In this document: positions 21,378 to 34,100 of the stretch, one piece after another
Position numbering within the stretch: the stretch's first letter is position 1
Layout: each line of letters opens with the position of its first letter
DNA from: Leeia aquatica
GTDB taxonomy: Bacteria > Pseudomonadota > Gammaproteobacteria > Burkholderiales > Leeiaceae
NCBI RefSeq assembly: GCF_012641365.1
Contig: NZ_JABAIM010000001.1
Span: forward strand, 1,116,001-1,180,000
DNA: 64,000 nucleotides
Direction: 5' to 3'
Position numbers and translations under genes: made by a program
The notes under the pieces: generated by a model
What the model was told of the DNA's origin: nothing
The model's input: the letters and a program-made list of their open reading frames with translations, nothing else
Databases searched by the model: none

Positions 21378-22265
21378 TCAGGCGGAGCGGCGCCCCAGCG
21401 CCACACACACCACCACCGCCAGCGCCACCAGCCACATCACCGGCGGCACATGCTCCCTTAACATCAACGCCGCCAGCAGCAAGCTGAAGAAAGGCTGTAA
21501 CAACTGTACCTGCCCCACCCGGGCAATACCCCCCACCGCCAGACCACGATACCAGGCAAAAAACGCAAGGAACATGCTGATCAGGCTGACATAGGCGAAG
21601 CCGCCCCAGGCCACACCGGACACGGCGTGCAACGGGCGGGTATACCATACCGGCCACAACAGAAAGGGTAATGACATCACCAGCGCCCAGCAAATGGTTT
21701 GCCAACTCCCCAGCGTGCGCGCCACCCGGCCACCTGCCACATAGCCCAGTGCACCGATCCCGACCGCCAGCAACATCAGGCCATCCCCCCAGCTCAAACG
21801 CCAACCCGCACCACTGTGCGCGCTACGCCACAGGGCAAAGCCGACCACCAGACCACTCCCCAGAATCGACCACCACCAGAACGCCCTGCGCGGACGCTCT
21901 CCGGTCAGCCAAGCCGCAAGGACCGCCGTCGCCAGTGGCAAGGTGCCATTGATGACCGAAGCCTGCGATGAGGTCACATATTGCAGCGCCAGTGTAGAGA
22001 ACACCGGAAAACCCAGCACCACACCGATCACCACTCCGGCCAGCCATCCCCATTCGCGGCCCTGTGGCCAGCGGCTGCGATGCCACAACAGCAACAGGAT
22101 GGACAGCACCGCTGCAACCAGCGCACGCCCGAGACTGATGAACCACGGATTCAGGTCCACCACCGCCAGCTTGGTCATCGGCAATGAACCGGCAAAGCCG
22201 ATCACCCCCAGCAGACCCCAGCCCATACCACCCCAGCCTTGGGTGGATGGTTGTTGTGTACTCAT
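21378..22265 (-). CDS. EamA/DMT family transporter
   Basis: This 295-residue protein has ten hydrophobic segments in two EamA repeats, typical of drug/metabolite transporters (often amino acid or metabolite exporters). Motifs include GSLPMTKLAVVDLNPWFISLGR in the first repeat (beginning and end noted) and LLQPFFSLLLAALMLREHV in the second. I chose the start at 22263-22265 (MSTQQPS), preceded by AGGGG. Its start overlaps the stop of the PhzF-like gene by four bases. Transporters of this kind often sit beside MocR regulators, which fits the divergent neighbour at 23.3 kb. Confidence 0.88.
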   Translation of the reverse strand: MSTQQPSTQGWGGMGWGLLGVIGFAGSLPMTKLAVVDLNPWFISLGRALVAAVLSILLLLWHRSRWPQGREWGWLAGVVIGVVLGFPVFSTLALQYVTSSQASVINGTLPLATAVLAAWLTGERPRRAFWWWSILGSGLVVGFALWRSAHSGAGWRLSWGDGLMLLAVGIGALGYVAGGRVARTLGSWQTICWALVMSLPFLLWPVWYTRPLHAVSGVAWGGFAYVSLISMFLAFFAWYRGLAVGGIARVGQVQLLQPFFSLLLAALMLREHVPPVMWLVALAVVVCVALGRRSA

Positions 22266-23176
22266 CGTAATTGCCCCTGCATGATCGGCACCGCTCCGCC
22301 ACCCACCATCGGCGGCAACACCCTGCCCTGTTGTTTTCGTCCGGTCAGGTGCAGCACGCTGAAGCGGCCCATGTCCTCGCCCTGATGCAAGGTCCAGCGC
22401 CATTCACCGTCCGCTACCTCCTGCTGGCTTGCCAGCCAGCCGGCCAAGCTGGACGCAGCCCCACCGGTGGCGGGGTCTTCCATAGGCACATCCCGTTCCA
22501 TCCACATCATTCGTGCCGCGTAGACCCCATCCTGCTGCGGGACATAGCCCAGCACCCCATCCGGCGCAAACGCAAACAGCTTGCGCCATGCCGGATCGTA
22601 ATACCGATGCCAGGCATCGGCCTGCAAGCGCAGGCGTGACAAGGCCTCGCGGCTGCTCAAGGCCACCAGCAGGTAAGGCATGCCACAGGACACCATGACC
22701 GGCGCCACGCCCGGCGGGAAATCCCCCTCATCCAGTGCCAGCAGTTCAGCCAATTGTGCGGGTGTCAGCGAGACCGGCAGCACCGTCGGCACCTCGGGTG
22801 CCGTCAGCCGTGCGGACTGCACCTGTCCGTTCTGAACCGAGAACTGTACCGGTACAGGCCCTGCCATCGTCTGCAAGGTACGGGTAGCCCCGTCCTCCAG
22901 AGTCCCTAACAGCCCTTGCCAGGCCAGGTGCAGGGCGGCCCCAATAGTGGGGTGTCCCGCAAAGCGCATTTCCAGGCTGGGGGTGAAAATGCGCAAACAC
23001 CAGGCGCAGCCCGCTTCCGTGGCGGCTTGCAAGAACACGGTTTCCGAGTAATTGAACTCACGGGCAATCTGCTGCATGGTGGCCTCATCCAGCCCGTCGG
23101 CAGCAGACACCACCGCCAGCGGATTGCCGCCAAAACGTCGGTCGGTAAACACATCGTAAGTATGAAACGTCTGCAT
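22262..23176 (-). CDS. PhzF family isomerase/epimerase-like protein
   Basis: This 304-residue protein belongs to the PhzF (diaminopimelate epimerase-like) superfamily. It opens with the typical MQTFHTYDVFTDRRFGGNP and AVVSAADGL, with the conserved GNPLAVV. The FNYSETVFL motif holds the conserved acidic residue, and the RFAGHPTIGAALHL and DPATGGAASSLAGWL segments are characteristic. The exact substrate is not known. It is the first gene of a minus-strand set (PhzF-like, EamA, cupin, GNAT) starting from the intergenic region shared with the MocR-type regulator. Confidence 0.9.
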   Translation of the reverse strand: MQTFHTYDVFTDRRFGGNPLAVVSAADGLDEATMQQIAREFNYSETVFLQAATEAGCAWCLRIFTPSLEMRFAGHPTIGAALHLAWQGLLGTLEDGATRTLQTMAGPVPVQFSVQNGQVQSARLTAPEVPTVLPVSLTPAQLAELLALDEGDFPPGVAPVMVSCGMPYLLVALSSREALSRLRLQADAWHRYYDPAWRKLFAFAPDGVLGYVPQQDGVYAARMMWMERDVPMEDPATGGAASSLAGWLASQQEVADGEWRWTLHQGEDMGRFSVLHLTGRKQQGRVLPPMVGGGAVPIMQGQLR

Positions 23177-23224
23177 GGCGCCTGCCTTCGAGGTACATTT
23201 GGCTTCATGGTAGGTGAAAGCAAC

Positions 23225-23271
23225 TTGACGGTGTCAGGTACAGTTGGCCTACAATCAAGGTTAACTGTACC
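23225..23271. promoter_or_regulatory. Divergent promoter region with a perfect inverted repeat, likely MocR operator
   Basis: GGTACAGTT at 23237-23245 and AACTGTACC at 23263-23271 form a perfect 9-bp inverted repeat, with centres 26 bp apart. On the plus strand a TTGACG (23225-23230) and TACAAT (23250-23255) pair lies around the left arm, with 19-bp spacing, so regulator binding would touch the promoter. The region separates the MocR-type regulator gene from the PhzF-like gene. I infer autoregulation and control of the divergent operon. Confidence 0.6.
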
Positions 23272-23277
23272 GGTAAA

Positions 23278-24747
23278 GTGACCCTGCCAATGTTTGCCCT
23301 GCCTGAAGTCAGCTCCGAGCGTGATACGCCTCTGGTCGAGCAGATCGTGGACCAGATCACCCGCAATATCGACCAGAAGACCTGGCATGCCGGCATGCGG
23401 CTGCCGTCGATCCGGCAGCTGGCGCAATCGCTGACAGTGAGCAAATTCACCGTAGTCGAGGCCTACGACCGGCTGGTGGCGCGTGGCTATCTGGATTCCC
23501 GCCGTGGTGCGGGGTTTTTTGTGGCTCACCGCAGCAAGCCGGTGCAGCAGCCGGAAGCCGAATCTCCGGTAGAACGTGCAGTGGATACCGTGTGGCTGAT
23601 GCGGCAAATGCTGCTGTCTGATAACGACATGCTGAAAGCGGGCTGCGGCTGGCTGCCAACCGACTGGCTGATGACCGAAGACATCCGCCGCGCACTGCGC
23701 ACCTTGTCACGCACGCCGATGCTGCGCCCCACCTGCTACGGCCTGCCGGCAGGCTATTTGCCGCTGCGGCAGCAATTGCAGCAGAAGCTGGCTGACATCA
23801 ATATCGACGCCCGCCCCTCGCAGATTCTGCTCACCGCAGGCGCGATGCCAGCCATCGACCTGATCCTGCGCTACTTTCTGCGCCCCGGCGATACAGCACT
23901 GCTGGACGACCCCAGCTACTTCAATTTCCGTGGCAACCTCAAACTGCACGGCGTGACCTTGCTGCCGGTACCGCGCACCCCACAAGGGCCAGACCTGCAG
24001 GTACTGGAGCGTCTGGTGCTGGAGCACCGCCCGCGCATCTACCTGACCAACAGTGTGCTGCAAAACCCGATGGGGACCAATATCAGCCCCGGCGTCGCGT
24101 TCAAGCTGCTGAATCTGGCGCATGCGCATGATTTCTACATCATCGAAGACGATATCTACGCCGACCTGCTTAATGAGCCCAGCTCGCGGCTGGCCGCGCT
24201 GGACCAGCTGCAGCGGGTCATTTACGTTGGCAGCTTCTCCAAAACGTTGTCGGCCAATTTCCGGGTCGGTTTCATCACCGCCCAGCGTGACCTGATCCAG
24301 GAGCTGGCCGACCTCAAGCTGCTGACTGGCATCACCAGTTCGGAAGGCGTCGAGCAAGTGGTCTACCAGCTGCTGACCGAAGGCTTCTACCGCAAGCATG
24401 TGGACCGGGTGCGCGGCAAGCTGGCGCAGGCGATGTCGCGGGTACGGCCTGCGCTGGCACGGCTGGGCTGTGAGGCCGTGGCCGAGCCCGCAGGCGGCAT
24501 GTTCATCTGGGCCAGCCTGCCACCGGGGGTGAATGCCTGCGATCTGGCGGCCAGCGCGCTGCAATCCCACATCGTACTGGCGCCGGGTAACCTGATGAGT
24601 GTGGCCAGCAATGCCAATCGCTTCATGCGCTTTAACATTGCCCACTGCAATGACATGGTGTTTGACCGGCTGGGACGGCTGCTGGAGGGCTGCACCACAC
24701 CGCAGCCGGTGCTGCACGGTGCTACAATGCAGGCAGTCCTTGCCTGA
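23278..24747 (+). CDS. MocR/PdxR-type GntR transcription regulator with aminotransferase domain
   Basis: This protein (489 aa from the GTG at 23278; an ATG at 23290 is an alternative) has an N-terminal GntR winged helix (about residues 15-85, with RLPSIRQLAQSLTVSKFTV and RGAGFFV). A fold type I aminotransferase-like domain fills the rest. The PLP lysine is in YVGSFSKTLSANFRVGF, and the PLP-contacting Asp is in YIIEDDIYADL. MocR regulators sense PLP-linked or amino-compound ligands. It is divergent from the PhzF/EamA/cupin/GNAT genes and is followed after 11 bases by a small exported protein. Confidence 0.92.
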   Translation: MTLPMFALPEVSSERDTPLVEQIVDQITRNIDQKTWHAGMRLPSIRQLAQSLTVSKFTVVEAYDRLVARGYLDSRRGAGFFVAHRSKPVQQPEAESPVERAVDTVWLMRQMLLSDNDMLKAGCGWLPTDWLMTEDIRRALRTLSRTPMLRPTCYGLPAGYLPLRQQLQQKLADINIDARPSQILLTAGAMPAIDLILRYFLRPGDTALLDDPSYFNFRGNLKLHGVTLLPVPRTPQGPDLQVLERLVLEHRPRIYLTNSVLQNPMGTNISPGVAFKLLNLAHAHDFYIIEDDIYADLLNEPSSRLAALDQLQRVIYVGSFSKTLSANFRVGFITAQRDLIQELADLKLLTGITSSEGVEQVVYQLLTEGFYRKHVDRVRGKLAQAMSRVRPALARLGCEAVAEPAGGMFIWASLPPGVNACDLAASALQSHIVLAPGNLMSVASNANRFMRFNIAHCNDMVFDRLGRLLEGCTTPQPVLHGATMQAVLA

Positions 24748-24758
24748 ACGGAGTTGCC

Positions 24759-25229
24759 ATGCGCCTGCCAGCCCTGTTGCTGATGCTCACCAGCCTGCCC
24801 ACGCTGGCCGTAGACCTGCGCAACAATCTGATCGACCTGCCGCCCAAGAGCAAGCTGGTACTGACCCTGCCGGTGGAGATCAAGGCGGACCTCGCCTTCA
24901 CCATCCTGGGGCGCAACGAAAACAACAACTGCTATCTCGGCTCCGCCCCCGAGCGCCCGGTTGCCGGACAGGCGCCGCGCTTTCAGGCCAGCAGCAGCGA
25001 CCGTAAATTCAAGGTCGGCAGCAAGTTCACGGTGCGCAAGGTCAGCGGCTTTCGCTCTGGCAAGTCCTACCAGGGCTACACCGTCACCCTGGGCAACACC
25101 AAGAACGACGGGGTGATGGTATTGTATCTGGAGCAGACCGGACCATCGGTTGGTTTTACCTCCATCCAGAGCATGCTGCGTGAATGTGGCAACAAGCTCA
25201 CGGTAGAAGACCCGGCACCCGGGCAGTAA
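24759..25229 (+). CDS. Small exported protein of unknown function
   Basis: I do not recognise this 156-residue protein. It has a clear signal peptide (RLPALLLMLTSLPTLA, cut before VDL) and a mature part rich in beta-prone residues, with two cysteines (in NNNCYLG and RECGNKL) that could form a disulfide in the periplasm. No membrane segment or lipobox is present. It starts 11 bases after the MocR gene with an upstream GGAG, so it may be co-transcribed, but its C-terminal region meets alr convergently. Its last codons contain a 14-base sequence repeated in the end of alr. Confidence 0.7.
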   Translation: MRLPALLLMLTSLPTLAVDLRNNLIDLPPKSKLVLTLPVEIKADLAFTILGRNENNNCYLGSAPERPVAGQAPRFQASSSDRKFKVGSKFTVRKVSGFRSGKSYQGYTVTLGNTKNDGVMVLYLEQTGPSVGFTSIQSMLRECGNKLTVEDPAPGQ

Positions 25230-25250
25230 GTTTCAAACAGGAACGCACCC

Positions 25251-26315
25251 CTAGACCGGGCAGCGCGGCACCCGGGCAGACACCGCGGTGAGCAGCTCAT
25301 AGCCCAGGGTGCCTGCCGCCACCGCCACCTCATCCACCGGCAACTGCGTCCCCCACAGCTCGACCTCAGTGCCCACATCGGCGTCCGGGCAGCCGCTCAG
25401 GTCCACCGTCAGCATGTCCATCGACACCCGGCCCACCAGCTGGCAGCGACGCCCCCCCACCAGCACTGGCGTACCCGTGGGGGCATGGCGCGGGTAGCCA
25501 TCGGCATAGCCGCACGCCACCACACCAATGCGCATCGGGTACTCCGCCACCACGGTTGCGCCATAGCCAATGCTGCCGCCGGGCTCAACATGCTGCACGG
25601 CAATCAGCCGACTGAGCAGGCTCATCACTGGCCGCAAGCCCTGGCTGGCCGCAGAAGCAGCTCCGGAGCGTGCGCCATACAGCATGATGCCGGGCCGTAC
25701 CCAGTCTGCATGGGTGTCCGGATGTGCAAGGATGGCAGCCGAATTGGCCAGGCTCACCGGCAGCTGCATACCCTCGGTTTCCATCAGGAAGGTCACCAGC
25801 TGGGCCGCCACCCCGTCCGTTTCGTCCGCCGTTGCAAAATGGCTCATCAGCGTGACCCGGCCCACCTGCGGCCAGCGGGACAACTGCTGCACCACCTCAC
25901 GGTATGGCCCCGGCGGAAACCCCAGCCGGTTCATGCCGGAGTTCAGTTTCACCCACACATCCAGCCGCAGCGGCAACCAGGCCTGCTGCAGCCAGGCCAG
26001 CTGCTGTGTACTGTGAATCACCGGCGTCAGCTGGTGTTCGGCCAGCAGGGGCAGTTCATCTGCGGTGAAGTACCCCTCCATCAGCACGATGGGGCGGCGC
26101 TCCCCTGCCGCTCGCAAGGCCAGCGCCTGCTCCAGCTCCAGCACCCCCAGCGCATCGGCCTCTTGCAGTGCGCTTGCCACGGTCTGTACGCCATGGCCAT
26201 AGGCATCGGCCTTCAACACCGCCAGCACCTTGCTGGCTGGCGCCAGCGCGCGCACCTGCCGCAGGTTGTGCTGCAAGGCAGCGGTATCAATCCGGGCAAA
26301 CAGGGGACGGTACAT
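25251..26315 (-). CDS. alr: Alanine racemase
   Basis: Alr (354 aa) interconverts L- and D-alanine for peptidoglycan. The PLP lysine is in VLAVLKADAYGHG near the N-terminus, and the catalytic Tyr of the second half is in SIGYGATVVAE. VACGYADGYPRHA and VGRVSMDML are conserved. I start it at the ATG 26313-26315, preceded by GAGGA at about nine bases; an upstream in-frame TTG at 26318 is too close to that site. It is divergent from dedA with a 99-bp shared region and convergent with the small exported gene. Confidence 0.95.
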   Translation of the reverse strand: MYRPLFARIDTAALQHNLRQVRALAPASKVLAVLKADAYGHGVQTVASALQEADALGVLELEQALALRAAGERRPIVLMEGYFTADELPLLAEHQLTPVIHSTQQLAWLQQAWLPLRLDVWVKLNSGMNRLGFPPGPYREVVQQLSRWPQVGRVTLMSHFATADETDGVAAQLVTFLMETEGMQLPVSLANSAAILAHPDTHADWVRPGIMLYGARSGAASAASQGLRPVMSLLSRLIAVQHVEPGGSIGYGATVVAEYPMRIGVVACGYADGYPRHAPTGTPVLVGGRRCQLVGRVSMDMLTVDLSGCPDADVGTEVELWGTQLPVDEVAVAAGTLGYELLTAVSARVPRCPV

Positions 26316-26354
26316 CAACAGGTTTCCTCAAAAAACAGCGCTGTCATACGGCTG

Positions 26355-26363
26355 TGCTATTAT
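26355..26363 (+). promoter_or_regulatory. Extended -10 promoter before dedA
   Basis: TGC followed by TATTAT at 26358-26363 matches an extended -10 element; no good -35 lies at the usual distance. It is 51 bases upstream of the dedA ATG in the divergent alr-dedA region. Confidence 0.4.
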
Positions 26364-26414
26364 ACGCCGACCTGTGACCGCAGCCGGAATCAACTGTTCC
26401 GGCATGACCCTTGA

Positions 26415-27074
26415 ATGGATATTCTGCAAACCCTGCTGGACCTGTTTTCTGGCGTCAGCTCTCACCCTTACTTTGCTTATATCGCGGTGTTTTCCGTGCT
26501 GCTGCTGTGCGGCTTCGGGGTGCCGATCCCGGAAGACATCTCGCTGGTTGCCGGTGGGGTGATGGCCGGTTTGGACATGGCCAATGTGCACATCATGTTT
26601 CTGGTCGGGCTGGCTGGCGTACTGGCAGGTGACACCATCATGTTCGTGGTCGGCCGCATCTATGGCGAACGCGTGCGCCGCTTCCGCATCGTGGCCCGCT
26701 ATCTGACACCGGAACGCTACGAGGCCGTACAGGACAAATTCCACAAGTATGGCAACCGGGTGATGTTTGTCGCCCGCTTCCTGCCGGGCTTGCGCTCCCC
26801 CATCTTCCTCACCGCCGGCATGACCCGCCGCATTTCCTTCTGGCGCTTTATTGCGGCAGACGGCTTTGCCGCGCTCATCAGCGTGCCGATCTGGGTCTAC
26901 CTCGGCTACTACGGCGCCGACAACCGCGCCTGGCTGATGGAGCAAGTCCATGCTGGGCAGCGCGGCATCCTGCTGGTTCTCGCCGTACTGCTGGTAGCGG
27001 TCGCTTGCCTGTGGTGGCGCAAACGCAGCAAAGCACGCGCCACCCTGCCCGATGGTACAGCCGGTACCGACTAA
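26415..27074 (+). CDS. DedA family membrane protein
   Basis: This 219-residue inner-membrane protein belongs to the DedA/SNARE-associated (VTT) family, whose members are linked to undecaprenyl phosphate and phospholipid recycling and to membrane stress. Signature motifs are GFGVPIPEDISLVAGG in the first half and FVARFLPGLRSPIFLTAGM in the second, with the conserved F..R..P.LR core. About five hydrophobic segments and a basic C-terminal tail are visible. It stands alone, followed after 82 bases by a strong terminator hairpin. Confidence 0.93.
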   Translation: MDILQTLLDLFSGVSSHPYFAYIAVFSVLLLCGFGVPIPEDISLVAGGVMAGLDMANVHIMFLVGLAGVLAGDTIMFVVGRIYGERVRRFRIVARYLTPERYEAVQDKFHKYGNRVMFVARFLPGLRSPIFLTAGMTRRISFWRFIAADGFAALISVPIWVYLGYYGADNRAWLMEQVHAGQRGILLVLAVLLVAVACLWWRKRSKARATLPDGTAGTD

Positions 27075-27156
27075 GCCAAATTTCGGCCTTGCATTCCCAT
27101 ACCGGGGGAGCTATACCCAAACCTGAGTAGGCTTGTGTCTCCTCATTCCCCCTGAA

Positions 27157-27183
27157 ACCCGCCGCCAAGGCGGGTCTTTTTTT
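27157..27183 (+). terminator. Rho-independent terminator after dedA
   Basis: ACCCGCC (27157-27163) pairs perfectly with GGCGGGT (27169-27175) around the loop GCCAA, followed by CTTTTTTT. It lies 82 bases after the dedA stop. The AT-rich segment that carries the orphan ATPase begins right after it. Confidence 0.85.
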
Positions 27184-27354
27184 GGGGATAGCATCATGTC
27201 ACATCACGCGATAGCTCACATTCGGCTGTTGCGTACTGAGACTACAGTTGATTAAATACGAAACATCCACATACTCGACAGAAATTTTCTAACTAAATTG
27301 TCATGGCATGTGCTTTCTTATAAGCACAGCAAAACAACATCTTTCGGGGCCGCA
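27184..27354 (+). promoter_or_regulatory. AT-rich leader of the orphan ATPase gene
   Basis: This gene-free stretch is AT-rich. A weak promoter pair, TTGATT (27248-27253) and CATACT (27270-27275), is spaced 16 bases apart. Downstream, TGTGCTT (27309-27315) and AAGCACA (27322-27328) form a perfect 7-bp inverted repeat with a 6-base loop. The promoter is tentative. Confidence 0.35.
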
Positions 27355-28653
27355 ATGAAACGCACACAAGATGTCTTTGGAATGTCAAGCTTGATTCTTC
27401 CAGATTCATACGTGGATCGCGGAAGCCTTGATGGCATACTTACACTCCTGACCAAGAGAAATATTCACGTAGCGATTCGAGGACCATCAAAATGCGGGAA
27501 GTCATGGCTTCGCCAAAAAGTGACACCTAATGCCTTAGTTGTTCAATGCAGGCACGGATTCACCAACATCAATATATATGAGACAGCACTAGCTCAATTA
27601 GGCATTGAACTTCCAAAAGAATCAATAATCAGGCATGGATCAAAAGAACAAAAAGAAGGGAGTATCACCGCAGGCAACGACCTTATAGGCAAACTCTCCG
27701 CAAAAGCCACGATAGATACCCAGACTGAGTCCTCAAGAAAGACCGAGGCGGTTGGACTAGACGTTAATAACTTGCAGTTGGTTGCGAAAGAAATAGTCAA
27801 ATCTGGCAGAAGACTGATCATTGAAGATGTTCATTATCTCTCAACTGAGCAAAGAGAAGCCTTATCTTTTGACTTAAAAGCCTTATGGGATCTAAATTGC
27901 TTTGCAACAATAGTAGGCGTCTGGGGAGACGCCAACATGTTTGTAAGCTTGAACACTGACCTGAGCGGAAGGCTAGAAGAAATTTCCATAGAATGGTCTA
28001 TCGAAGAGTTGTTCTCTATTATCGAAAACGGATCTAGGTCATTAAATATTCAAATTTCAAAGAAAATACAAACATCATTAGTTGGTGATGCTTTTGGAAA
28101 TGCGGGTCTACTCCAAATCTTGCTTTTAAAAACCCTTGACGAATTCAAAATCACTCAGACCCAACCGCACTCCAAAAGACTTGAGGACACCTCTAAATAC
28201 AAAGATGCGGCAATGCATGTAGCCGAGCAACTAAATGCAGTTTACCTAACATTTGGAGAAAGGGTTGCCAAAGGTATTAGGCATAGGAATGATTCGACCG
28301 GCATATATGCTCACGCCATGGAGGCAATTATCAAAGCCCCTGATAAACTCCATATGAGCGGAATCCCCGTTGATTATATATACGAAAATTCCATTAAACG
28401 GCAACCTAGAATACAAAAGTCAAATTTGAAAACAATTCTATCAAAAATAGATAGTCTTCAAGTTGACAATCACGGACGAGGATTGGTCGTCACTTATGAT
28501 CGTGACAAAGAATGGGTTTTAAATGTAGATAGGCAATTATTGTTCTACAGAAAATACCAGACTGCTCAATGGCCTTGGGAAAATTTAATTTCAGCAACCG
28601 TTCAGCAGCAATTAACATCAAACAATGATCCACAATTAGATTTAGATTTTTAG
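27355..28653 (+). CDS. Orphan P-loop ATPase in an AT-rich, probably acquired segment
   Basis: This 432-residue protein has no family I can name with certainty. After a short N-terminus (SYVDRGSLDGILTLL) comes a Walker A motif, GPSKCGKS at residues 43-50, and a Walker B, RLIIEDVHYL around 153-162. A sensor-1-like strand, TIVGVWGDANMF, is at about 185-196, followed by a helical lid with GNAGLLQILLLKTL. The C-terminal region (about 365-410) looks like a winged helix. This is the layout of AAA+/STAND-like switch proteins. I start it at the ATG 27355-27357, where GGGG precedes it; an in-frame TTG at 27298 lacks support. Base composition is roughly 35-40% GC by eye against about 60% around it, with many AGA, ATA and TTA codons, which suggests horizontal transfer. 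It is convergent with rmuC. Confidence 0.75.
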   Translation: MKRTQDVFGMSSLILPDSYVDRGSLDGILTLLTKRNIHVAIRGPSKCGKSWLRQKVTPNALVVQCRHGFTNINIYETALAQLGIELPKESIIRHGSKEQKEGSITAGNDLIGKLSAKATIDTQTESSRKTEAVGLDVNNLQLVAKEIVKSGRRLIIEDVHYLSTEQREALSFDLKALWDLNCFATIVGVWGDANMFVSLNTDLSGRLEEISIEWSIEELFSIIENGSRSLNIQISKKIQTSLVGDAFGNAGLLQILLLKTLDEFKITQTQPHSKRLEDTSKYKDAAMHVAEQLNAVYLTFGERVAKGIRHRNDSTGIYAHAMEAIIKAPDKLHMSGIPVDYIYENSIKRQPRIQKSNLKTILSKIDSLQVDNHGRGLVVTYDRDKEWVLNVDRQLLFYRKYQTAQWPWENLISATVQQQLTSNNDPQLDLDF

Positions 28654-28675
28654 CTCGATAACATAAGCTATATGC

Positions 28676-30106
28676 CTACTCCTCCAGCTCCGGCAGCTCA
28701 TCCCCCTCCAGCTGCACATGCTCGATGGCGGCGAAGCGTTTGCTGATTTTCTGGCTGGTGATGTGCACTTCCTGTACATCACGATGCGCCTGCCCAATGT
28801 GGGTGGCGAGGTTTTGCATGCGTTTGTCGAAGCGGCCAAATTCTTCGGCCAGTTTGACCAGCTCATGCTGCATCACGTGCAGCTGTTCGCGCATCTGGGC
28901 ATCACGCAGCACGGCGCGGGCGGTATTGAGCACCGCCATCAAGGTGGTGGGGGAAACAATCCATACCCGCTTTTGCTGGGCGTAGGCCACCACGTCGTCG
29001 TGGTAGGCGTGCACTTCGGCAAACACGGCCTCGGCGGGCACAAACATCACCGCGCCATCGGCGGTTTCACCGGGCAGGATGTATTTGCTGGCAATGTCGT
29101 CGATGTGCTTTTTCACATCACGGACAAACTGGCTGCGGGCCAGCTTGCGCTCGCCTTCTTCGGCGGCGTCGAACATGCGGCGGTAGTTTTCCAGCGGGAA
29201 CTTGGCGTCCACCGCCACTCGCCCAGTCGGCGGTGGCAGCTCCAGCACGCAGTCGGCCCGCACGCCTGAAGAGAGCGTGACCTGGAAGCCAAATACCGCT
29301 TCCGGCAACACATTGCGCACCAGATGCTCCAGCTGCACTTCGCCAAACGCGCCCCGTGAGCGCTTGTCCCCCAGCAGCTCCTGCAGGCTGACCACATTGC
29401 TGGCGAGGCCGTCGATCTTCTTTTGCGCTTCGTCGATGGTGGCGAGCCGGGCCATCACGTTGACAAAGGTTTCATTGGTTTTCTTGAAGCCTTCGTCCAG
29501 CCGCTCGCTGACCTTGCCGGAAATCTGCTCCAGCCGCTCGCCAACGGTCTGATTGAGTTTGTCGATGGTCTGGGTGAGGGATTGGCTGACGTGCTGCAAT
29601 GTCGCCAGCAAGGTGTCCTGTGCCTGCTTGCCTTGTCCGCTGAGAGTGGTGCTGACTTTTTCCAGCAGCTCGGTACGCAGGGCATCCAGCCGCTGCTGCA
29701 GGTTGACGGTAAGCTGGCCCAGCTCACGCTGCAGCATTTCCTGGTTCTGCCCCAGTCGTTCTTGCTGGTTGTGCTGCAGTTGGGTGAGGGCCTGCCGGGT
29801 TTGCAGCAGCTCGGTCGATACCGCCTGGCGCAGGGTTTCACCGCTGCCCGCCACCATTTGCCGCAGGCGCTCACCAGTATCGAGCAACGCACGCTGCTGG
29901 CGTTCGCTGGCATCTTGCAGGGCATGCGCCGTACGCTCGGCTTGCTGCTGCAGGCCTTGATGCAGGTCACGCAGCATGTCGCGGTGGCGCTGCTCGAGTT
30001 GCTCCGGGGTAATGGCCTGCTGCTGCGAGCGCAACAGGCGGGTGAGCTGCCAGCCCAGGCCGGCCATCCCCAGCAGCAATGCCCCTACCAGCACCCAATC
30101 CAGCAT
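28676..30106 (-). CDS. rmuC: DNA recombination protein RmuC
   Basis: RmuC (476 aa) limits DNA inversion and rearrangement and has a predicted nuclease-like domain. A single N-terminal membrane helix (LVGALLLGMAGLGWQL) is followed by a long Gln/Leu-rich coiled coil (about residues 25-230). The conserved RmuC domain has SRGAFGEVQLEHLVRNVLPE, VDAKFPLENYRRM and the ETADGAVMFVPAEAVFAE stretch. It starts 60 bases downstream of the PilZ-like gene and ends 22 bases from the orphan ATPase gene, which points toward it. Confidence 0.93.
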   Translation of the reverse strand: MLDWVLVGALLLGMAGLGWQLTRLLRSQQQAITPEQLEQRHRDMLRDLHQGLQQQAERTAHALQDASERQQRALLDTGERLRQMVAGSGETLRQAVSTELLQTRQALTQLQHNQQERLGQNQEMLQRELGQLTVNLQQRLDALRTELLEKVSTTLSGQGKQAQDTLLATLQHVSQSLTQTIDKLNQTVGERLEQISGKVSERLDEGFKKTNETFVNVMARLATIDEAQKKIDGLASNVVSLQELLGDKRSRGAFGEVQLEHLVRNVLPEAVFGFQVTLSSGVRADCVLELPPPTGRVAVDAKFPLENYRRMFDAAEEGERKLARSQFVRDVKKHIDDIASKYILPGETADGAVMFVPAEAVFAEVHAYHDDVVAYAQQKRVWIVSPTTLMAVLNTARAVLRDAQMREQLHVMQHELVKLAEEFGRFDKRMQNLATHIGQAHRDVQEVHITSQKISKRFAAIEHVQLEGDELPELEE

Positions 30107-33176: not shown

Positions 33177-33716
33177 TTACTCCCCTACCTTGGCGAACGG
33201 CAGCATGCGACGCAGCACCGTATCGCGATTCACAAAATGATGTTTCAGGGCGGCCAGCACATGCACCACGATCAAGGCGACCATCAGCCAGGCCAGTGTT
33301 TCGTGCACTTCCGCCAATTGCTCACCCAGCGCCTTGTCGGGGCCGATCAGGTCGGGCAGGCGCACCAGCTTGAAGTAGACCACCGGCACCCCTTTGGCGG
33401 AGCTCATCAGCCATCCCACCAGCGGCACGCCGATCATCAGCAGATACAGACCCAGATGCCCGAGGTGGGCCGCCAGTTTTTCCCACGGCTTCATGCTGTC
33501 CGGCATGGCGGGCACCCCTTTGAGCAGACGCCAGAGCAGGCGCAATGCCACCAGCGCCAGTACGGTGATGCCGATCCATTTGTGGTAACTGAATTGCGCC
33601 AGCACCTTGGGCGACAGCGGTGCGTCTGCCATGGCGAGGCCAATACCGAAAGCGACCAGGATCAGTACAGCCATCAGCCAGTGCAACAGCTTCGACAATG
33701 GGTGGTAACGGTTCAT
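33177..33716 (-). CDS. Cytochrome b561
   Basis: This 179-residue inner-membrane protein has four helices that carry two b haems. Haem-ligand histidines lie in SKLLHWLMAV, FSYHKWIGITVL, AHLGHLGLYLL and VHETLAWLMVALIVVHV. It probably passes electrons from ubiquinol to periplasmic partners. The start at 33714-33716 has AAGGAG at nine bases; the longer in-frame reading from 33740 is less well supported. It is first in an operon with two YceI genes. Confidence 0.93.
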   Translation of the reverse strand: MNRYHPLSKLLHWLMAVLILVAFGIGLAMADAPLSPKVLAQFSYHKWIGITVLALVALRLLWRLLKGVPAMPDSMKPWEKLAAHLGHLGLYLLMIGVPLVGWLMSSAKGVPVVYFKLVRLPDLIGPDKALGEQLAEVHETLAWLMVALIVVHVLAALKHHFVNRDTVLRRMLPFAKVGE

Positions 33717-34100
33717 CTCTACATGCTCCTTGCATTGCACGACGGCACAATCGCCCCTTGAGAGTATGCCGACCGATCATTGGTTCCCGAAAAAATCAAA
33801 AAAACTGAATTAATTTTGCGAGGAGCTTCCAAGCATTTGCCCACCAGCCCATCCATCCAAGCACATATAAATGCCCAAAAAAGCGCACCATAGATAGACA
33901 AGGCTCAATGCACACATTGCAAGGCCCTCATTTTGACAGAGAGAACAAGAATTACTACTAAAATAACCTGAATTATTAATCAAAAAAAATGAACATTAAG
34001 GCAACTGCGCCATCATTGGTCGAACATGCGGCATACCGGCTGCACGCTGCGACGACCAACACTACAATGTCTTCAAGCTCACCCGTATTCACCATACCTC
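33717..34100. promoter_or_regulatory. Gene-free AT-rich region between cytochrome b561 and astE
   Basis: This 384-base divergent region is AT-rich from about 33,780 to 34,010 and has no convincing gene. A perfect -35, TTGACA, is at 33933-33938 on the plus strand, with TACTAA at 17 bases or TAAAAT at 20 bases as candidate -10 elements. Either could drive astE. No operator-like repeat was evident. Confidence 0.4.

Follow-up and report, generated by a model that had tools for sequence, protein, structure and literature searches.

A lone AAA+ ATPase gene between dedA and rmuC of Leeia aquatica as a member of the candidate defence family PDC-S59

A short, GC-poor segment separates dedA from rmuC in Leeia aquatica, and its only gene encodes an AAA+ ATPase with a predicted C-terminal winged helix. 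Judged by its profile matches, this gene is a new member of the catalogued candidate family PDC-S59, and we regard it as somewhat probable that it represents a horizontally acquired single-gene anti-phage (superinfection-immunity) cassette. The gene was studied within a stretch of 64,000 nucleotides (contig NZ_JABAIM010000001.1), hereafter the window, whose positions are used below wherever no other contig or locus is named.

Composition and probable insertion of the segment

The segment, its gene and its two flanks are delimited as follows.

26415..27074, + strand: dedA (VTT domain, DedA type), left flank, by Pfam and tblastn
27075..28675, no strand: segment from dedA stop to rmuC stop, 1601 bp (9 and 20 bp in two same-genus genomes)
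27355..28653, + strand: PDC-S59 gene, 432-aa AAA+ ATPase with C-terminal winged helix, by ORF, PADLOC and AlphaFold
28676..30106, - strand: rmuC (Pfam RmuC), right flank, by Pfam and tblastn

The flanking genes are convergent and the PDC-S59 gene is the sole gene between them, as the initial annotation had claimed for a lone gene of 432 residues (here from the list of open reading frames, with the flanks named by Pfam). The start was placed at the ATG at 27355, with the listed frame opening at an in-frame TTG (27298, 451 aa). Its GC content (0.401) departs from that of the window (0.599) to such an extent that none of 1255 same-length windows (step 50) was found at or below it. The GC island described earlier therefore stands, although the estimate of 35-40% made by eye was slightly low, since a 400-bp profile runs at 0.385-0.445 inside (windows 27200 to 28799) and at 0.57-0.69 outside (22000 to 26999). 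The wealth of AGA, ATA and TTA codons remarked on at the same time was likewise recovered by counting them against five neighbouring genes (AGA 8 vs 0, ATA 13 vs 1, TTA 14 vs 1); AGG (8 vs 0), CTG (3 vs 211) and the GC3 (0.37 vs 0.78) deviate as well. A smaller GC dip (0.46) is found away from the gene, at 33600-33999.

In both same-genus genomes used for comparison (two in number) dedA and rmuC lie side by side with no copy of the gene (tblastn), and the stop-to-stop gap, read from the printed sequences, measures 9 and 20 bp as opposed to 1601 bp here. Given that the junction is short and empty in both, the gene is most likely an insertion. A protein search of other relatives recovered no copy (0 of 59), and the family profile (threshold E 1e-5) was matched in 2 of 398 other genomes of an order sample and in 6 of 397 genomes of a phylum sample, the two samples being overlapping. 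The horizontal acquisition put forward in the initial annotation, which had proposed precisely this comparison of dedA-rmuC in related genomes, is consistent with the empty junctions, the lack of a copy in the 59 other relatives and the low GC. The same-genus comparison comprises two genomes, and an ordinary native gene of the lineage, odd in composition and lost in two relatives, would thus be conceivable; the deviant composition, the rarity in the order and the nearest relatives, which sit in other families and on viral contigs, make such an origin very improbable.

No direct repeats mark the ends, in line with what had been noted before (longest word common to 27061-27360 and 28641-28720: 7 bp direct, 8 bp inverted), and no tRNA was found within the window. 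To the left of the gene, a hairpin with a T-run (27157-27175) is present where a dedA terminator had been proposed; the hairpin stands, although it may, instead of serving as a terminator only, close a small-RNA-like element. This element (27136-27183, + strand) is situated a short way to the left of the PDC-S59 gene, ends in the hairpin and T-run, and resembles RF02278 (Betaproteobacteria toxic small RNA) at a score below threshold (26.7 bits vs 50). Two better matches, also sub-threshold, occur elsewhere in the genome (C2:246790 and C2:624572, both of which have TGTCTCCTC and a terminator in common); a further listed match (C1:516767) overlaps, by eye, an apparent tRNA. The RF02278-like element was not found in the dedA-rmuC gap of the two same-genus genomes.

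Closer to the ATG, we observed by eye a TTGTCA followed after 15 bases by TATAAG (27298-27327, + strand), overlapped by the inverted repeat GTGCTT-TCTTAT-AAGCAC (27310-27327), and from these letters the arrangement could be a putative promoter with an operator. A promoter scan, run with spacers of 16-18 bases only, performed at chance level (4 found vs 4.0 expected) and did not list this pair, whose spacer is 15.

Family assignment, fold and invariant residues

The HMM search advised in the initial annotation returned a full-length match to PADLOC PDC-S59 (PDLC05049; E 8.2e-175, residues 1-421 to profile positions 1-422 of 428), a profile that all 42 members of our alignment match too. The length is the same, the entry likewise consists of a single gene, and nothing was found that would exclude membership. 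PDC entries stem, as predicted candidates that are mostly unvalidated, from a 'guilt-by-embedding' screen (PMC12988326), and PDC genes also appear in PMC11514479. No mention of the name PDC-S59 was found in the open-access library searched, and among the papers listed by broader searches none dealt with a one-gene AAA+/winged-helix defence or with an AAA+ pore hairpin.

Partial similarity was detected to phrog_6841, a PHROG with no assigned function (E 9.2e-7, residues 25-268), which is matched by 37 of the 42 aligned members. A weak match to the MADS mad8 profile (E 0.0015) covers the ATPase part, and none of the aligned members reaches E 0.001 with it (0/42). Pfam and NCBIfam contained no family above cut-off: only sub-threshold AAA domains were recovered from the former (AAA_22 at 17.1 bits vs a curated cut-off of 27), and from the latter a hydroxypyruvate isomerase (E 0.089), which we consider a chance match. 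A sequence-profile search of solved structures produced nothing significant (best E 0.19). Among 50,697 phage records, no match was found for the window protein or two relatives and a fourth query gave one weak match, so that these four queries identified no clear relative in isolated phages. The two outcomes that had been named beforehand as speaking against acquired cargo, a copy at the same locus in most relatives with matching composition and assignment to a known housekeeping family, were both not observed.

According to an AlphaFold2 model built from 42 sequences (mean pLDDT 84, pTM 0.79), the protein is composed of an AAA+ core, a helical lid (helices between 216 and 263) and then a C-terminal winged helix, without an attached enzyme domain. 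The features discussed below are these.

27481..27504, + strand: Walker A, GPSKCGKS, residues 43-50 (G43, S45, K46, G48, K49 and S/T50 in 42/42)
27619..27756, + strand: insert after strand 2, residues 89-134, possible amphipathic beta-hairpin (pLDDT <50, polar/hydrophobic alternation)
27814..27840, + strand: Walker B strand and Glu-Asp-Val-His-Tyr-Leu (LIIEDVHYL), residues 154-162 (E157, H160 and Y161 in 42/42)
27970..27972, + strand: R206 at the base of strand 5 (207-211), candidate arginine finger (42/42)
28186..28650, + strand: C-terminal region with winged helix, residues 278-432 (folded alone, mean pLDDT 92.6)

Both Walker motifs, which had been read from the letters at the outset, hold up in this invariant core, with positions 44 and 47 of Walker A varying among the 42 relatives; W190, Q254 and D392 are invariant as well. 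The best Foldseek match was Cdc6/Orc1 (2qby; E 2e-8, TM-score 0.43, rmsd 9.6). Upon structural realignment a Pyrococcus Walker-type ATPase ranked first (2qen; Z 18.8, 4.8 A over 305 residues), accompanied by Cdc6/Orc1 2qby (Z 17.2, 6.0 A over 303 residues, aligned from residue 2 to 412), Aeropyrum Orc1 (2v1u; Z 16.9), an archaeal AAA+ ATPase (2fna; Z 16.6), TnsC (Z 14.6, 3.7 A over 244 residues), a STAND protein (6mfv; Z 13.7), MuB (Z 13.2) and CED-4 (about 13). A viral structure library yielded mainly clamp loaders and unnamed proteins. The C-terminal winged helix suspected earlier is present in the model and is of the DNA-binding type; searched alone with Foldseek, this domain matched nothing at E 0.001 or better (best E 0.54), and among realigned chains the Cdc6 winged helix came first, ahead of those of Fur type and of ORC, with a modest Z of 8.1 that is close to what common arrangements reach.

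ORC/Cdc6-type ATPases, among them the BREX proteins BrxC and BrxD, share with the window protein the AAA+ core, an arginine at the base of strand 5, a helical bundle and the winged helix (hallmarks as given in PMC12839542, where the arginine finger lies directly before strand 5, e.g. in BrxD). Their helix-extension-helix insert after strand 2 may have a counterpart in the window protein, where the model shows a helix (71-81), a disordered stretch (89-134) and a second helix (140-150). The Walker signature of this group is kept throughout the family (G-x-S-K-x-G-K-[ST] and E157 in all 42), and from its position R206 is inferred to be the arginine finger; DNA binding and oligomerisation, too, are inferred from fold and motifs. 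The window protein differs from this group in that it stands alone, has a long, zigzag-patterned insert and carries an invariant Q254, with no conserved arginine at lid positions 247-251 and 254. The STAND ATPases and NLR-like defence proteins resemble it in combining AAA+ with a winged helix, unlike it in that its 432 residues comprise neither a repeat sensor nor an effector domain.

Relatives, their neighbours and prophage slots

Scanning genome contigs with the single protein found nothing, and 45 genome loci emerged once four close proteins had been aligned and used as the query; another 59 loci came from viral contigs (L088 being the same place as L022). The resulting 104 loci form 75 clusters at 85% identity, and after leaving out near-copies at this identity and rows <380 aa, 72 rows plus the window protein entered the tree. 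The nearest kin are encoded in a Rhodocyclaceae bin, a viral contig and a Comamonadaceae bin (61, 55 and 54%, respectively), and six plasmid records hold relatives (the best 48% and 44% identical). The close clade mixes Pseudomonadota, Bacillota, Actinomycetota, Nitrospirota and Verrucomicrobiota (some of them metagenome bins). The make-up of the distant clades is biased, because these were sought mainly in viral contigs.

The GC of the gene falls below that of the DNA on either side at 44 of 45 close loci and at all 59 distant ones (103 of 104, near-copies included), by a mean of 14 and 13 points, respectively; low GC is therefore a habit of the family and not of this host alone. The gene is also constrained by purifying selection (L137 vs L143: dN 0.022, dS 0.70, dN/dS 0.03; in the other pairs dS was saturated or nearly so, with dN of 0.06-0.34).

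P2-like prophages (recognised by at least 2 matching proteins of an E. coli P2-like prophage) harbour 23 of the 104 loci, in 9 non-redundant clusters. Six of the 23 lie between V and S and 12 within 312 bp of Q; three more have Q as the nearest such gene at 1.3-2.1 kb, and two are placed elsewhere. In E. coli, a gene with 79% identity to the V-S type was detected in 4 of 5426 genomes; the two regions that were read have it between the S and V genes, encoded on the opposite strand. Phage P2 itself carries in this slot (NC_001895 9439-10224) the nonessential orf30, also directed against the late genes. We suggest that the S-V (orf30) slot may be a further cargo slot of P2-like prophages; neither orf30 nor gpV is mentioned in the main text of PMC9122126. 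In E. coli, this slot houses the PDC-S59 candidate at L147 (11398-13843).

A more distant type is present in 11 of the 5426 E. coli genomes, and the one region read places it in the A-Q slot, beside the portal gene Q. This slot is a defence hotspot in which P2 keeps the exclusion genes old and tin (PMC9122126), and 4 of 21 systems recovered by functional selection came from it (PMC9519451). The distant relatives resemble old and tin by position, and the close relatives differ from them in occupying the orf30 slot between S and V. In E. coli IMT5155 (L150, 3856-4596), a gene for a DUF4145 protein shares the A-Q slot with a family member. Taken with the PDC-S59 match, the prophage slots of the relatives support the view, put forward at the outset, of an acquired lone AAA+/STAND-like ATPase of the defence-cargo type.

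The association with neighbouring TIR or other effectors, mentioned in the initial annotation for similar ATPase domains, was not recovered. Clustering of neighbours over the 104 loci found no partner gene at a fixed place across clades, and 30 of 37 close loci lacked a co-directional ORF of at least 90 aa within 60 bp (a simple ORF caller was applied to 40 close loci, 32 genome and 8 viral, 37 of them with both flanks readable). The clusters that were examined comprised phage structural genes, integrases, a resolvase, a histidine kinase and a CI-like repressor.

On chromosomes, the neighbours of close relatives are mainly housekeeping and regulatory proteins (best 25 of the 95 Pfam families matched by 109 proteins around 32 close genome loci, these proteins being hand-picked from 170 in a listing that left out proteins >900 aa). 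These 109 neighbours matched 62 PADLOC profiles, none of which (among the best 25 of the 62) was found in more than one protein, and owing to this scatter the general defence-island signal is weak. The matches listed include DpdF, a type II methyltransferase, a type II restriction enzyme and PsyrT (one protein each). Ten neighbours were additionally scanned singly and two had matches (a histidine kinase, E 3e-6, and the protease part of RT-Protease_XI, E 3e-20).

Two loci are described here in their own right. At L065 (7317-10693) a relative seems to have landed by itself in a two-component operon: a response regulator gene lies 16 bp away on one side, and on the other a histidine kinase gene overlaps it. 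On the Methylobacterium indicum plasmid pVL1_5 (L016, 7175-11281), the 48% identical relative directly follows a BrnT/BrnA toxin-antitoxin pair and an 'abortive infection family protein'.

A CI-like repressor gene is situated directly upstream on the same strand at L109, L113, L114 and L120 (viral contigs, two prophage clusters); it was identified at L109 by Pfam and PHROGs (Peptidase_S24; L109 7305-9335) and at the other three by similarity. The position after such a repressor is often home to genes expressed in the lysogen.

This placement would also suit a regulator, i.e. an ORC-like AAA+ protein which is not an initiator and which, equipped with a winged helix, governs prophage or host transcription and does not stop phages. 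The domain composition and the presence of Cdc6/Orc1 among the best structural matches agree with such a role, and haloarchaeal Orc1-2, a relative of Orc1, has been reported as a DNA-damage regulator (PMC9738581). Nevertheless, no conserved neighbour or target operon was seen across clades, the contexts and phyla are very different, and the slots are known for exclusion genes; we deem a regulator unlikely.

Somewhat further down in our estimate, and quite improbable, comes a transposition or replication ATPase (TniB/TnsC/MuB-like) left behind by, or serving, a mobile element. The AAA+ fold is shared and the TnsC and MuB scores given above are appreciable; TniB is weakly matched by 5 of 42 members (for the window protein it was unlisted at E 10, where filters remove many weak matches), and a PHROG annotated as 'DNA transposition protein' is matched by one member. 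At 8 of the 104 loci (7 clusters) a phage-type integrase is encoded in the vicinity, recognised in one case by profile and in the others by similarity to that one, and Resolvase is present in 3 of the 109 neighbours. These recombinases are, however, scattered in distance and lie on either side, as expected of mobile elements generally, and no transposase recurs beside relatives (104 loci clustered, 109 neighbours by Pfam). The window gene, moreover, is flanked by dedA and rmuC, the family is constrained and no common word >8 bp was found at the insertion ends. It is because neither a target operon nor a transposase accompanies the gene family-wide that we favour both readings less than an anti-phage cassette.

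The insert after strand 2 and a proposed mode of action

In the model, the insert is disordered (89-134) and framed by helices at 71-81 and 140-150. Within the set used here (67 rows including the window protein, with six more distant rows left out) it is present in 67 of 67 members, spans 41-51 residues and is rich in Gly, Ala, Ser, Thr and Lys. Its beta-periodicity exceeds that of shuffled sequences in 67 of 67 members at 180 degrees, in 65 at 170 and in 42 at 160, and its helical periodicity (100 degrees) does so in 23 of 67. In three separately aligned clades, the longest polar/hydrophobic zigzag found anywhere in the protein starts at the same profile position (16, 17 and 17 residues), and the second-longest (12 and 13 residues) follows one position later in two of them; the third clade has another run, of 16 residues and outside the insert, that is almost as long. 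Runs of such length have a per-clade chance of 0.076, 0.043 and 0.043; the agreement in place is the stronger point, with the reservation that the clades share ancestry. A scan of the beta-moment over 11 residues did not single out the insert, other segments being equal or higher, as the comparison of run lengths had done. We reason that the insert may be an amphipathic hairpin that becomes ordered in the oligomer only.

If so, it could act as a built-in effector, with the ATPase as sensor: upon activation each subunit of a ring would contribute one amphipathic beta-hairpin to a barrel, the membrane would be breached and infection aborted. Such a protein would unite sensor, switch and pore in a single 430-aa chain, a one-gene abortive-infection system. 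The presence of the insert in all 67 members tested, its preference for beta over helical periodicity, the shared place of the longest zigzag and its unfolded state in the monomer model are compatible with this. Against it weigh run lengths little beyond those of shuffles, the drop to 42 of 67 at 160 degrees, the rival run in the third clade, the even-handed moment scan and the common ancestry of the clades, and channel loops touching DNA would also fit; a pore is thus improbable, about on a par with a transposition ATPase or slightly above it.

Returning to the anti-phage cassette, we tentatively propose a mode of action that is considerably less secure than the cassette itself and is extrapolated from the model. 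With ATP bound, the protein would oligomerise by way of R206, placed where subunits meet; a feature made during infection (most likely phage DNA or its replication complex) would be read by the winged helix together with the strand-2 insert, and assembly on this target would block the invading phage directly, without a nuclease. Several observations count against a defensive role in general: cargo slots also hold non-defence genes, the chromosomal close relatives are found mostly among ordinary genes, and four queries of phage records found no clear relative.

Should the gene prove protective, it would constitute a one-gene, nuclease-free AAA+ defence and pose the question of how a lone, origin-initiator-like ATPase stops a phage. 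PDC-S59 has so far been a database name, and its fold class, invariant motifs, low GC, prophage slots and strand-2 insert now make of it a testable system, of which E. coli prophage versions exist. An ORC/Cdc6-like ATPase that comes as a single gene and lacks an effector leaves its mechanism open to study in E. coli, which lends this otherwise ordinary piece of defence-type cargo a more than usual interest.
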